This document shows positions 24,732 to 35,317 of a DNA stretch of 35,317 nucleotides, piece after piece. The stretch is from Candidatus Sumerlaeota bacterium (GTDB taxonomy: Bacteria > Bacillota > SLNR01). Position 1 is the first letter of the stretch, and every line of letters starts with the position of its first letter. The notes under the pieces were generated by a model. The model was not told the origin of the DNA. It ran no database searches and saw nothing but the letters and a program-made list of their open reading frames with translations. The DNA lies in assembly GCA_007132905.1 (NCBI GenBank), contig SLNR01000005.1:1-35317 (forward strand), given 5' to 3'. The translations under genes were made by a program, and so were the position numbers.

Positions 24732-27602
24732 ATGCCAACACCGATCTATGATCCGTTGAAAGGGAAAATGCGTGTGTTCGGATTTGCTTCGGGGTCAGGA
24801 AATACTTTGTGGAAAGTGCTGGAGCTGCAAAAAGAATTAGAAAAGGGAATGGAAGGCTGTCCATTTGAAGTCGTCGGTGTTTTTTCGGACAACCCGGATT
24901 CAAAAGCAATCGAGACTGCAGAAAAATATGGATTTCCTCATGTAAGCTTAAATTTACGAAAATACCATAAAGAAAAGGACGCTCCATTAAAAGATAGAAA
25001 GGTAAGAGCTGAATTTGACTCTGAAGTATTGGAGCTTGTGAAATCTTTTAAACCGGATCTTATCCTTCTGGCAGGATATGTCTGGGCTACTACAGATGTG
25101 ATTGTGGATCGTTACCGGGTTATTAACATCCACCCTGCCGACCTTTCTGTGCAAAAGGAGGGGGAACGTCTTTATGCAGGGGCGCACGGGATTAGGGACG
25201 CACTAGATGCCGGAGAAGACTATCTGCATTCATCCTCCCACATAGCCACAAAGGAACTGGACGGAGGCCCTTTGCTGATGATTTCTCCGGGTGTTCCTGT
25301 AGACAGAGATCTTGATCTAAAAGGAAACGAAAGAGAACGCTACTATTTAAAACCCGTTAATAAACAATCAAGACAGTTAGCGGCGAGGACTGTTTGGGAG
25401 ATAGCTAGAGGAGCTTTTTCACAAGACAGTGAAGGGAAAGTTTACTATGAAGGAAACAAAGTGCCCAAGGGATTTTGTCTGCCCAGTTGGGATAAGTATA
25501 AGCCTCTTTATCAAAGACCAGTCGAGCCGTTGATTAAACCGAAGTCAGTTGCGGTGGTCGGTGCCTCAGCCAAAGGAGGGATTGGCCAGGCGATTATTCG
25601 AAACCTAAAAGACGGCGGATTTGAGGGAGGCATGTATGCGGTCAATCGAAAAGCAGAGGATGTGCTGGGGGTTTCGGGCTATGCCTCTATCCTTGATATT
25701 CCGGAAGATATTGATATGGCTGTGTTGGCAATTCCTTCATCTTCTGTTGTTGAAATCGCCCAAGAATGCGGCAAAAAGCAAACCAAGGTGGTAGTCTGTA
25801 TTTCGGCGGGATTTAAGGAAACAGGAGAAGAAGGGAAAGAACAAGAGAAAAAACTTTTGGACACTGTTCATTATTATAATATGAGACTTATAGGGCCAAA
25901 CTGCATGGGGATTGCCAATACAGATCGAGCTGTATCATTAAATGCCAATATACTTCAATCGGCTCCGCCAAAAGGCAACATAGGTTTTATCACTCAAAGC
26001 GGAGCATTAGGGGCTGCCATGGTTGATTTTGCAGAAGAACTTGGACTTGGATTTTCCATAATTGCCTCTCTTGGAAACCAGGCAGATTTAAATTGTAATG
26101 ACCTGTTAATGCTTATGGAAGAGGATGTTCAAACAGAAGTCGTATTGCTTTATATGGAATCGATTCCGGAGCCGGGAAGATTCAAAAAGTGGGTGAAGCG
26201 GTTAGCAAAGAGAAAACCGGTGATTATGATCAAAGCCGGACGAACAGAAGCCGGAGCTTTGGCAGCCAGTTCCCATACAGGCAGTCTTGCGGGCAAAGAC
26301 CAAGTAGTGGCTGCTTTGCTTAAGCAAAGCGGCGCTGTCCGCGTAAGATCTTTATCTGAAGCTTTTGCTGCCGCCTCGGCATTGGCAAAGATGCCCAAAG
26401 TGAAAGGTAAAAAAGTAGGTGTCATCACTAATGCGGGAGGACCGGGTATTTTGGTTTCTGATGCTCTCCATGACAATGGGTTTGAGCTGCCTTTGCTTGC
26501 AAAACAAGCCCAGGAGAAGCTAGCTGAAAAGCTGCTTCCGGAAGCTGCTGTGAGGAATCCGATCGACTTAGTGGCACCGGCTCCTCCGAAACACTATGCA
26601 CAAGCTGTCAAAGTGATGATGAAAGAAGGGGACTATGATGCGCTTTTGATTGTATGTGTTCCACCCGCCACGATTGATACAGGCGAAGTAGCAAGAACAG
26701 TAGTAGGGGAATTACAAGAAACAGACATGCCGGTTCTAACTTGTTTCTTTGGCCCCAATCTAGGTGCAGCGGGAAGAGAAGTGATGCTGAAAGCCGGGAT
26801 TCCAACCTTCTCGTATCCTGAAGAGTTGGCGAATATTCTTTGCATTATGAGAGAAGCTTCTTTCTCAGCAAAGAGTGCGACAAGAGAAATATCAAGCAAA
26901 CAAAAACCTGAAGAGCTTCCTCCACATCTTAAAGAGAGAATAATCCAAAGCCCGCCGGGGAAATATCTGCCTTCACCGTTGTGCAGAGAGATTCTTCAAG
27001 CCTATGGTTTTAACATGGTACAAAGCTATGAGGTGGCGAGTGCAAAACAGATTCAAACCAACGAATTTCCGGTGGTGGCTAAAATTCATCATCCTGAGCT
27101 TATCCACAAAACCGATGAAGGTGGTTTGGTGATGAATTTACAGGATGAGAGAGAGTTAGAAGAGGCCGTGGATTATTTATTGAGGAGGTTTCCCGGGGCA
27201 AAAGGAGTGGAGATTCAAAGGCAAATTCCTCCGGGGAAAGAAGTGATCTTAGGGGCTGTCAAAGACTCGTTGAATGGGCATGGTGTAATGGTTGGTATAG
27301 GAGGAACACAGGTTGAGCTGTATAAAGATATTGCTTTTGGACATGCGCCTTTGCATAAACAAGAGGCTGAAGAGATCATAAGGAGTTTAAAGGGGTATCC
27401 ACTTTTGAGCGGATACCGAGGTCAAGCAGGTGTGAATGTTGGATTGCTGTCAGATCTAATGGTTCGGTTAAGTTGGCTTTTAATGGAAGTTCCGCAAATA
27501 GCCGAAATGGATTTGAACCCATTGATTTATGATGCAAAACAAGATGATTTTGTGATAGTTGATTACCGTATACGTCTAGCAGGTTCAGAAGACGTTTTTT
27601 GA
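24732..27602 (+). CDS. PurN-like formyltransferase domain fused to NDP-forming acyl-CoA synthetase (alpha + beta/ATP-grasp)
   Basis: N-terminus: GFASGSGNTLWKVL, VGVFSDNPDSKAIETAEKYGFPH, DLILLAGYVW...YRVINIHPADL, KELDGGPLL. C-terminus: CoA-binding SVAVVGASAKGGIGQAIIRNL, IGPNCMGIAN, GNIGFITQSGALG, SSHTGSLAGKDQ, ATP-grasp IHHPELIHKTDEGGLVMNL. Confidence 0.88.
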   Translation: MPTPIYDPLKGKMRVFGFASGSGNTLWKVLELQKELEKGMEGCPFEVVGVFSDNPDSKAIETAEKYGFPHVSLNLRKYHKEKDAPLKDRKVRAEFDSEVLELVKSFKPDLILLAGYVWATTDVIVDRYRVINIHPADLSVQKEGERLYAGAHGIRDALDAGEDYLHSSSHIATKELDGGPLLMISPGVPVDRDLDLKGNERERYYLKPVNKQSRQLAARTVWEIARGAFSQDSEGKVYYEGNKVPKGFCLPSWDKYKPLYQRPVEPLIKPKSVAVVGASAKGGIGQAIIRNLKDGGFEGGMYAVNRKAEDVLGVSGYASILDIPEDIDMAVLAIPSSSVVEIAQECGKKQTKVVVCISAGFKETGEEGKEQEKKLLDTVHYYNMRLIGPNCMGIANTDRAVSLNANILQSAPPKGNIGFITQSGALGAAMVDFAEELGLGFSIIASLGNQADLNCNDLLMLMEEDVQTEVVLLYMESIPEPGRFKKWVKRLAKRKPVIMIKAGRTEAGALAASSHTGSLAGKDQVVAALLKQSGAVRVRSLSEAFAAASALAKMPKVKGKKVGVITNAGGPGILVSDALHDNGFELPLLAKQAQEKLAEKLLPEAAVRNPIDLVAPAPPKHYAQAVKVMMKEGDYDALLIVCVPPATIDTGEVARTVVGELQETDMPVLTCFFGPNLGAAGREVMLKAGIPTFSYPEELANILCIMREASFSAKSATREISSKQKPEELPPHLKERIIQSPPGKYLPSPLCREILQAYGFNMVQSYEVASAKQIQTNEFPVVAKIHHPELIHKTDEGGLVMNLQDERELEEAVDYLLRRFPGAKGVEIQRQIPPGKEVILGAVKDSLNGHGVMVGIGGTQVELYKDIAFGHAPLHKQEAEEIIRSLKGYPLLSGYRGQAGVNVGLLSDLMVRLSWLLMEVPQIAEMDLNPLIYDAKQDDFVIVDYRIRLAGSEDVF

Positions 27603-31704: not shown

Positions 31705-31728
31705 GTGTGAACACAAAAGTGTGCACAC
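31705..31728. promoter_or_regulatory. Tandem palindromic operator-like element
   Basis: GTGTGAACAC-AAAA-GTGTGCACAC: two GTGTnnACAC palindromes 14 bp apart, 20 bp ahead of the regulator start. Confidence 0.65.
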
Positions 31729-31747: not shown

Positions 31748-32272
31748 ATGGATTTTGTTCGAATAGGGGACAAGGTTATCAGCCGGAGCAAAGTATTAAA
31801 AATTGTTGACAAAATTTTTTCACTTAGAAGCCGCGGTTGGTCCCAGCAGGAAATTGCCGATGAAATTTCGACAGACAGAAGCTTTATTTCAAGATTGGAA
31901 AATCTAGCAGAAGTACGCCGGGGCAGGCGAATTGCCATGGTAGGATTTCCTATTGAAAACAAAGAAGAGATTGAAGACATTGCTTACAAAGAAGGCGTTG
32001 AATTTACTTTGCTTCTGACAGAAAAGGAAAGGTGGAGTTTTGTCCAAGATCGAAGCGGTTTGGAAGTTTTTGACGGAATCATGAACATTCTCAGCGAAAT
32101 CAGGAGTTTTGATGTGGTAATCATCATGGCGTCCAACAAGAGAGTTGCTTTAGTGGAGAGTTTGCTTGATAAAGAAGTCATCAGCGTGGAGATCGGACAT
32201 TCCCCATTAGGAAAAGATGCTTATGTAGATCCAGAGAAGATCGCTAACATTATTCGAGATATGAAAAGATAA
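31748..32272 (+). CDS. HTH transcriptional regulator of unknown specificity
   Basis: IFSLRSRGWSQQEIADEISTDRSFISRLENLAEVRRGRRIAMVGFPIENKEEIEDIAYKEGVEFTLLLTE...; HTH N-terminus and an unfamiliar C-terminal ligand-type domain. Confidence 0.75.
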   Translation: MDFVRIGDKVISRSKVLKIVDKIFSLRSRGWSQQEIADEISTDRSFISRLENLAEVRRGRRIAMVGFPIENKEEIEDIAYKEGVEFTLLLTEKERWSFVQDRSGLEVFDGIMNILSEIRSFDVVIIMASNKRVALVESLLDKEVISVEIGHSPLGKDAYVDPEKIANIIRDMKR

Positions 32273-32317
32273 TTTTCTGCGATTGCTGGGTGTAATCCGA
32301 ATGAAGGAGGGGTGAGG

Positions 32318-33223
32318 TTGAAAAAAGTTGTCAGTGTCAGCCTAGGATCATCAAAAAGAAACAGCTCGGCTGAGATCGAAATTCTGAATCAAAAAATTCA
32401 CATTGAAAGAATAGGAACTGATGGCGATATTAAAAAGGCGATAGAGTTAATTAAAAAAATGGATGGAGAAGTAGACGCTTTTGGCATGGGAGGGATCGAT
32501 TTATATGTTTGGGCAGGAAAGCGACGTTATATTCTCAAAGACGCCGTTCCTATAGCTAAAGCCGCCGTAAAAACCCCCATCGTAGACGGAAGCGGATTAA
32601 AAAACACCCTTGAAAGAAGAGTCATAAGATACCTTCAAGATAGTTCAAAGATGGATTTGAAAGGAAAAAGAGTTCTGATGGTTTGCGGCGTGGATCGTTT
32701 CGGCATGGCCGAAGCATTAAACGAAGCAGGGTGTCATCTTGTTTTTGGGGACCTTATCTTTGTCATAGGACTTCCGGTTTTGCTTAGGTCTTTGAGATCT
32801 CTTCACATGGTGGCTTCGATTCTAGGCCCTATGTTAAGCAGACTGCCCTTTCATATGCTCTACCCTACCGGAAAAAAGCAAGAAGATGTTCATCCTAAAT
32901 ATGAAAAATACTATCAAAATGCAGAAATTATTGCGGGAGATTTCCATTTTATCAGGCGGTATATGCCAAAGAATCTTGAAGGGAAAACGATTATCACCAA
33001 TACGGTAACCAAAGAAGATGCCGCTGAATTAAAGCAGAGGGGAATAGTGAGGTTAATTACAACAACACCGGAAATAGACGGAAGGTCTTTTGGGACAAAT
33101 GTCATGGAAGGAGTGTTGGTCGCTTTAGCAGAAAAACCAGACCATGATTTGAGCGCAGAGGATTATGATCGTCTTTTAGATAAGATTGAGTTTGTTCCTA
33201 GAATCACAGAAATGGCAGATTAA
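32318..33223 (+). CDS. Conserved protein of unknown function (members are sometimes labelled quinate 5-dehydrogenase)
   Basis: Long ORF with good RBS (GGAGGGGTGAGG); motifs DAFGMGGIDLYVWAGKRRYILKDA, VLMVCGVDRFGMAEAL, GDLIFVIGLPVLLRSL. Start TTG 32318 or GTG 32312. Confidence 0.6.
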   Translation: MKKVVSVSLGSSKRNSSAEIEILNQKIHIERIGTDGDIKKAIELIKKMDGEVDAFGMGGIDLYVWAGKRRYILKDAVPIAKAAVKTPIVDGSGLKNTLERRVIRYLQDSSKMDLKGKRVLMVCGVDRFGMAEALNEAGCHLVFGDLIFVIGLPVLLRSLRSLHMVASILGPMLSRLPFHMLYPTGKKQEDVHPKYEKYYQNAEIIAGDFHFIRRYMPKNLEGKTIITNTVTKEDAAELKQRGIVRLITTTPEIDGRSFGTNVMEGVLVALAEKPDHDLSAEDYDRLLDKIEFVPRITEMAD

Positions 33224-33246
33224 AACAATGGCGAAAGGAGATTTTT

Positions 33247-34326
33247 ATGGAAAAGTTTGCGTTTGTACTTCATCCGATTAGTGTTCGAGATATCGCCAGG
33301 AAATTTGGATTTGCAAAATATTTGCCCGACGGTGTTTTGGAAAGCATGTTTAAGATGGTTCCCCCTTTAAAAGTTTCTCATATTACGGGAGTTGAATCTC
33401 CTCACAGTCAAGCAGAAGGATGGTTTGTTGCTGTTCCTCTTACCCCGAAACAGATGACGAACCTGCCCCTGGATTTTGTGCTGGATAGAATCATAAAGGC
33501 AGGAAAAATTGCCGAGCAACAAGGAGCCAAAATACTGGGACTAGGCGCTTTTACTTCTGTTGTTGGAGATGCGGGAATTACAGTCGCAAAAAATTTAGAC
33601 ATTCCCGTGACAACCGGCAACAGTTATACCGTAGCAACAGCGCTTCAAGGCACGGAAAAAGCAGCTGAGCTGATGGATATTGATTTAAGAGAGGCAGAGG
33701 TGGTCGTACTTGGAGCGACAGGGTCTATTGGAAGTGTTTGTTCGGAAATATTGGCCCGCGATAAGAGAAAACTGACTTTGGTTGCAAGAGACAGAACAAA
33801 ACTCGATAACTTGTTGCATAAACTAAGTAATGAATACGACTCAAGGGCGAGCGCTTCAACAGATGTAAAAGAAGCAGTCCAGAATGCAGATGTAATCATT
33901 GCCGTCAGCAGTGCCGTAGAGGCCCTCATCGATGCCGAAGATCTAAAACCCGGTGCCATTGTTTGCGATGTAGCAAGGCCGAGAAGTGTATCAAAAGCGG
34001 TGGCTGAAGCCCGCGACGACGTTTTGGTGATTGAAGGGGGAGTGGTAGAACCGCCCGGAGATGTTGAGTTTAATTTTAATTTTGGATTTCCTCCAAAAAA
34101 CGCATACGCCTGTATGTCTGAGACGATGATTTTAGCTTTAGAGAAAAAATACGAAAGCTTTACTTTGGGAAGAGAACTTTCTTTGGAGAAAGTCGAAGAG
34201 ATTTCGGTTCTTGCTGAAAAGCATGGGTTTAAGCTGGCTGGATTTAGGAGCTTTGAAAGAGCTTTGATGCCTGAGCATATTGAGGCAATAAGAAAGAATG
34301 CTCAAGGGAAGAAACAAACAGGATAA
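33247..34326 (+). CDS. Acyl-ACP reductase (AAR)/shikimate-dehydrogenase-like NAD(P)-binding protein
   Basis: GAKILGLGAFTSVVGDAG, TTGNSYTVATAL, VVVLGATGSIGSVCSEIL (Rossmann), LTLVARDRTKL, VIEGGVVEPPGDVEFNFNFG, AYACMSETMILALE; closely resembles the cyanobacterial acyl-ACP reductase pattern. Confidence 0.75.
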   Translation: MEKFAFVLHPISVRDIARKFGFAKYLPDGVLESMFKMVPPLKVSHITGVESPHSQAEGWFVAVPLTPKQMTNLPLDFVLDRIIKAGKIAEQQGAKILGLGAFTSVVGDAGITVAKNLDIPVTTGNSYTVATALQGTEKAAELMDIDLREAEVVVLGATGSIGSVCSEILARDKRKLTLVARDRTKLDNLLHKLSNEYDSRASASTDVKEAVQNADVIIAVSSAVEALIDAEDLKPGAIVCDVARPRSVSKAVAEARDDVLVIEGGVVEPPGDVEFNFNFGFPPKNAYACMSETMILALEKKYESFTLGRELSLEKVEEISVLAEKHGFKLAGFRSFERALMPEHIEAIRKNAQGKKQTG

Positions 34327-34612: not shown

Positions 34613-34872
34613 GCGGTTTTTCTTCTTGAAGACATAAATAAGCAAAGAAGTAGATGATAATTGCGGCGAGAAGGAGGATATTTGTTGTTTTGCAAGTATC
34701 TATTTAGAATGGAAGCGACATCCTAATTTATGGTAAGAAGCGCAAAATGGCACCACTTTCTCGCGAATGGGTAAGTTGTAAAATTAAATGCCGTAGGGCA
34801 AAAAATATAGACTCATGGTAAATCCGATGTATAATGTTAAGTGACAAAACAAAACATTACAAAGGAGATACC

Positions 34873-35317
34873 ATGAGCCAATTTAATCATACCTTAGAAT
34901 TGAGAAAAAATAAACACCTTACTGTGAGAGAGAGGTATAAAATTGAAGTTTTACTAAAGGAAGGCTATCGGGCCTACGAAATAGCAAATAGACTAAATAG
35001 AAACAAACGAACCATCGAAAGGGAAATAATAAAAGGCACGGTAAGACTACAAAACACCGATTTAACCTATAGGAAAGAGTATTGTGCTGATGTTGGTCAG
35101 CGGGTGTATGATAAAAATGGGCAAAACAAAGGTCCTGGGCTCAAAATAGGCAATGACCATAAGCTAGTAGAGCACATTGAAGGAAAAATCATTAAAGACA
35201 AATACTCACCGGATGCTGTCATTGGTGAAATTAAAGCAAAGGGAATGAAGTTTAAAACAACCATATGCACAAAGACTTTATACAACTACATAGACCAGGG
35301 ACTCTTTTTAAACGTCA
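34873..35317 (+). mobile_element. IS30-family transposase, N-terminal part (truncated by window edge)
   Basis: MSQFNHTLELRKNKHLTVRERYKIEVLLKEGYRAYEIANRLNRNKRTIEREIIKGTV...YSPDAVIGEIKAKGMKFKTTICTKTLYNYIDQGLF; RBS AAAGGAGAT before ATG 34873; open to the window end. Confidence 0.85.

Follow-up and report, generated by a model that had tools for sequence, protein, structure and literature searches.

A putative autoregulated operon for acyl-derived amine formation, built around an enzyme resembling acyl-ACP reductase

We identified a conserved operon of a helix-turn-helix (HTH) regulator, a protein referred to here as the middle protein, and a reductase of the acyl-ACP reductase (AAR) type in a contig of an anaerobic Candidatus Sumerlaeota bacterium, whose 35,317 nucleotides are called the window. 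The operon is best explained, with a probability of roughly 0.6, as an autoregulated module, with interchangeable enzyme cassettes, that would form an amine from an acyl thioester, either acyl-ACP or acyl-CoA. From homology, the positions of catalytic residues, an operator, co-occurrence and gene replacement, all read from sequence, we infer repression, the reductive direction, the substrate, the amine product and the role of the middle protein.

The operon and its conservation in the phylum

The three genes lie on the forward strand between 31748 and 34326, with short gaps between them (Table 1); the cluster that the earlier note had described is therefore real, and the motifs quoted there are present. 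The source assembly, in which the window is contig C44, comprises 2.07 Mb in 173 contigs (94.5% complete, 6.3% contamination). As the GTDB class of the window is a single genome in the sampled set of 398 genomes of the phylum, the comparisons are with more distant relatives.

Table 1. Features of the operon and its operator in the window
Feature	Position	Strand	Remarks
Tandem operator	31706..31727	+	TGTGAACACAAAAGTGTGCACA; upstream of regulator gene; the window's only match
Regulator ORF	31748-32272	+	ORF call; start ATG
Middle (unknown-protein) ORF	32312-33223	+	ORF call
AAR-like reductase ORF	33247-34326	+	ORF call

The reductase is no oddity in this phylum but common, with matches in 255/398 genomes. 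The middle protein was matched in 291/398 and both proteins in 240 (two match tables compared by hand), and in the sampled genomes a strong reductase match was almost never found without the middle protein. Across the phylum the three genes sit between dusB and greA-lysS, adjoining a conserved house-keeping block, with the usual order coaX-dusB-HTH-middle gene-AAR-greA-lysS. As the reductase is matched in so many genomes and the gene order is conserved, the three-gene module is not a chance arrangement.

In the window, greA-lysS give way to an IS-like transposase gene (HTH_38), whose 5′ part (34834-35317) runs up to the contig end. At three loci of relatives (L099:9875-10762, L100:10438-11346 and L088:9903-10772), other proteins of about 290-300 aa fill the AAR slot behind the middle gene, that of L099 having no NCBIfam match. 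Elsewhere in the window, downstream of dihydropyrimidinase-like and racemase-like genes, an ORF of 956 aa (24732-27602) combines, by eye, an N-terminal formyltransferase-like part with an ADP-forming acyl-CoA synthetase-like part.

The reductase

The reductase has 359 aa; a second domain is absent, so it carries no fused aminotransferase domain. In a phmmer search of the PDB its best match was PigE (4ppm, E 2.7e-38), with cyanobacterial AAR at E 5e-29 (6jzq), and among the NCBIfam models PigE scored 228.6 bits and the AAR model TIGR04058 141.7 bits (E 3e-41), the reductase being below the equivalog cut-offs of both (449.7 bits for TIGR04058). By these scores it is nearer to the PigE reductase domain than to cyanobacterial AAR. 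The "cyanobacterial AAR" pattern of the earlier note thus holds for the AAR type, with its Cys and NADPH-type residues, but not for AAR proper.

In SeAAR, which makes free fatty aldehyde, C294 is the acyl-enzyme Cys and R189, R193 and R314 bind the NADPH phosphate (PMC7089970). By phmmer, Cys289 of the reductase (codon 34111-34113) aligns with C294, as had been supposed from the letters, and in the alignment the three arginines correspond to R181, K185 and R309. Both Cys289 and the Gly-rich loop G156-A-T-G-S-I-G162 (GxxGxxG) are invariant in all 53 main relatives. The AlphaFold model (pLDDT 87.9), a check that the earlier note had also suggested, superposes on AAR 6jzq with an rmsd of 2.9 across 327 residues (Z 34.6); an AAR-like carmabin domain reached Z 32.6, and the next family was far lower at 14.7. 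The likeness to SeAAR therefore extends over fold, catalytic Cys, loop and phosphate-binding Arg/Lys residues, but the identity is 28%, the score is far under the equivalog cut-off, and R73 and R79, which contact aldehyde-deformylating oxygenase (ADO), are not kept and align with P74 and D80. The apparent lack of an ADO gene extends to the whole genome of the window, in which PF11266 had no match; the Synechococcus control was detected. Altogether, the third product is predicted from sequence and model to have the AAR fold and to reduce acyl thioesters by means of its Cys.

Six relatives (L114, L115, L117, L122, L123 and L124) have a reductase beside the middle protein that has lost the Cys, and these copies are possible pseudoenzymes. 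Only the genome of L114 among them encodes the aminotransferase-reductase fusion described below. A non-catalytic role may thus exist somewhere, and the middle protein and the reductase slot may bind or sense. Annotated aminotransferase genes matching the reductase were also seen in the plasmid records H1-H6, H9, H11-H13, H15 and H16, from Methylocystis, Thioclava, Haematobacter, Rhodovulum and Leisingera.

The regulator and its operator

The regulator (174 aa) is XRE-like, with weak matches to HTH_3 and HTH_19, and its C-terminal domain, to which no match assigned a function, is conserved in an alignment of 41 sequences. The operator family has the consensus TGTGCACA-N4-TGTGCACA; sites were accepted when a pair of TGTGCACA-like half-sites, in most cases with a 4-bp spacer, gave at least 13 of 16 matches. 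Such a site precedes the regulator gene in 54 of 56 loci (0 in shuffles), in agreement with the dedicated regulator of the earlier note. A promoter and terminator scan ahead of the regulator gene found none. The HTH protein is predicted to be an autoregulator that represses through the tandem operator, its candidate binding site.

A scan of the window's genome allowing at most 2 mismatches returned just two sites, that of the operon and one at C19:4240 (none with a control pattern), the latter upstream of a class III aminotransferase gene (G000:C19:4379-5674), about 120 bp from its predicted start. By chance, about 0.5 operator site is expected per genome, and about 4e-5 in the 150 bp before one given gene. 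Additional operator-like sites in G011, G111, G137:C101, G149, G177:C1/C7/C12 and G340 fall within or close to unrelated genes; we regarded them as chance matches.

The aminotransferase partner

In 54/398 genomes, from about 22 families, the reductase is found as a fusion protein of about 870-1030 aa with a class III aminotransferase N-terminal to the AAR domain, and the Cys is kept in all fusion copies read. The fusion can occupy the slot of the operon, behind the regulator and the middle gene (L109 and L112) or directly behind the regulator (L108), and 5/13 fusion loci have an operator of their own. Fusion and standalone AAR are anticorrelated, as both occur in only 2 genomes (each 7% contaminated) where 23 are expected (p 4e-12), and with the fusion genomes left out a separate aminotransferase is present in 142/170 standalone-AAR genomes vs 12/174 genomes without (p 5e-52); these p-values treat related genomes as independent and overstate the evidence. 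The separate aminotransferases mostly showed 43-50% identity.

Fusion, co-occurrence and shared operator, all sequence evidence, mark the class III aminotransferase as the strongest functional partner of the reductase, and the end product is therefore likely an amine and not a fatty aldehyde or alcohol. The fatty-aldehyde or acyl-thioester reduction system of the earlier note thus survives as an AAR-type enzyme, but probably not as regards its end product.

An unlikely, though the least unlikely, alternative is that the standalone enzyme makes fatty aldehyde or alcohol for ether lipids, plasmalogens or wax-like compounds, and that only the fusion lineages have a link to the aminotransferase. 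Free fatty aldehyde is indeed what AAR proper yields (PMC7089970), in most loci no aminotransferase adjoins the standalone AAR (in L136 one does), and 28 AAR genomes have no aminotransferase match at E 1e-75. It is at odds with the operator common to the operon and the aminotransferase gene in the window's own genome, with the fusion in the same operon slot, and with the co-occurrence in 142 genomes.

Several systems resemble the proposed amine route. PigE reduces a thioester and transaminates the resulting aldehyde (PMC8341465), TamH likewise reduces and transaminates fatty acyl groups, with NADH (PMC9594044), and KecF is predicted to carry out the PigE-type reactions (PMC6498172). PP_2782 and Firmicutes fusions are a precedent for an aminotransferase with an AAR-type thioester reductase, and the fusions of Thermaerobacter and Thermincola, which have been linked to secondary metabolism, actively transaminate aliphatic aldehydes (PMC10829540). 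All share with the present system the reductase fold and Cys and the class III aminotransferase partner, and fused homologues occur in this phylum. Here, in contrast to the PigE/TamH type, the reductase is separate, in an operon with a regulator and a putative AAR-fold partner, no pyrrole or polyketide cluster adjoins, and its residues suggest NADPH, whereas the fusions read GNP at the position of AAR R189.

The replacement cassette

In genomes that lack AAR and keep the middle protein, an operon for an alpha-oxoamine synthase and a zinc dehydrogenase has the operator upstream in 18/18 loci for which upstream DNA is available. The dehydrogenase is present in 21/39 of these AAR-less genomes vs 0/26 standalone-AAR genomes (p 1e-6, likewise overstated since related genomes count as independent). 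Three fusion genomes also carry relatives of the dehydrogenase (35-41% identity), without a synthase or an operator; these were not counted as this cassette. Serine palmitoyltransferase is the closest match of the L186 synthase (E 2e-88), and the L185 synthase is nearer to the BioF/Kbl family. Although such a pair of a serine palmitoyltransferase- or Kbl-type synthase and a zinc dehydrogenase is unrelated to AAR, it has the same operator. The strongest pointer to the product class is that with either cassette nitrogen would be joined to an acyl thioester.

The opposite direction would make the regulon catabolic, the aminotransferase turning an amine (e.g. a polyamine) into an aldehyde, which the AAR-like enzyme would oxidise to an acyl thioester, with the synthase and dehydrogenase working in the breakdown direction of Kbl/Tdh. 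The aminotransferase of the window's genome does score best as a putrescine aminotransferase (493 bits, PigE lower at 405), the replacement pair is distantly Kbl/Tdh-like, and every step is reversible in principle. We consider this direction somewhat less probable still than an aldehyde or alcohol product, as the AAR-fold partners studied so far work reductively (PMC7089970, PMC9594044, PMC8341465), NADPH-type residues are kept in the reductase, the L186 synthase is closest to a biosynthetic enzyme, and we saw no transporter next to the sites regarded as regulatory. In the one relative tested (L133), the aminotransferase was best matched by the PigE aminotransferase domain.

The middle protein

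The middle protein has 301-303 aa, as its start is probably TTG at 32318 (MKKVVSVSLG, with MKRVVSVSLG as the N-terminus of relatives). It had been listed earlier as an unknown protein of 302 aa, and indeed neither Pfam, nor PDB sequences, nor a PDB profile search gave a credible match, and the plasmid search found no relative on plasmids; its model, on the other hand, points to an AAR-like fold without the Cys. The AF2 model (pLDDT 89.6) had AAR 6jzq as its top match (Z 13.8, rmsd 4.5 over 248), with the AAR-like carmabin domain at Z 13.0 and glutamate dehydrogenase, the next unrelated structure, at 10.4. There is no invariant Cys and no Gly-rich loop; by eye, GRSFGTNVME stands at the place of ACMSETM, with DRFG also at a matching place. 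The middle protein is thus predicted to have an AAR-like fold minus the catalytic Cys and the Gly-rich loop, a kinship drawn from the model, since a profile comparison with the reductase and AAR detected none (low diversity). A diverged second copy lies at L106:9360-10190 (G047), beside a gene that by eye is a relative of methionine synthase or uroporphyrinogen decarboxylase.

Proteins like the middle protein presumably bear the label "quinate 5-dehydrogenase". The model does have two domains with a Rossmann-like half, but it is nearer to AAR than to shikimate dehydrogenase, the Gly-rich loop is missing, and Shikimate_DH of Pfam gave no match at E 1. The label is given to a family conserved in Deinococcus-Thermus (PMC9425974), to which the middle protein may belong.

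The AAR-like and middle proteins might instead serve mainly to sense acyl thioesters and signal to the HTH regulator, their catalytic role being secondary or lost. This would suit the Cys-less fold modelled for the middle protein and the Cys-less AAR kept in place in six relatives, but is improbable given the invariant Cys and cofactor motifs of the 53 main relatives and the enzyme genes regulated elsewhere.

Proposed mechanism and significance

In the amine-forming module that we favour, the acyl group would be taken onto Cys289 and reduced with NADPH to an aldehyde, as homology and residues suggest, and the class III aminotransferase encoded elsewhere would aminate it. The HTH protein would repress both transcription units through the common tandem TGTGCACA operator. 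The weakest part concerns the middle protein, a putative AAR-fold partner without catalytic residues: since it accompanies the regulator no matter which cassette would form the amine, its probable role is to bind a substrate or product common to the cassettes, or to act as a scaffold for the enzyme. Relatives would exchange the cassette between standalone reductase and aminotransferase, the fusion, and alpha-oxoamine synthase with zinc dehydrogenase. Counting against this explanation are the operator found before the standalone aminotransferase in 3/21 loci tested (one being the window's genome), the putrescine-aminotransferase score, the Cys-less copies, the AAR genomes without an aminotransferase match, and the non-independence of the genomes.

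More tentatively, at slightly under even odds, the operon may represent an ancient dedicated regulon of Clostridia-type bacteria for an acyl-derived amine (an amino-lipid or lipid-like signal), controlled by this family of HTH proteins, with interchangeable cassettes around a constant AAR-fold pseudoenzyme. The cassettes of this regulon would be AAR with aminotransferase, their fusion, or a serine-palmitoyltransferase-like synthase with a dehydrogenase. Earlier work covers AAR chemistry and aminotransferase-AAR fusions, among them fusions of Firmicutes; the standalone operon, the operator, the fold of the middle family and the cassette exchange were not found in the literature searched, most subscription journals lying outside it.

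If the amine-forming reading is true, about half of the genomes sampled from the phylum would produce an acyl-derived amine not yet described, by a core pathway that regulates itself and whose genes now carry poor or wrong names. The operator offers a direct way into this regulon, and the exchange between reductase-aminotransferase and a sphingolipid-type synthase would be a case, open to testing, in which two chemistries arrive at one product class.
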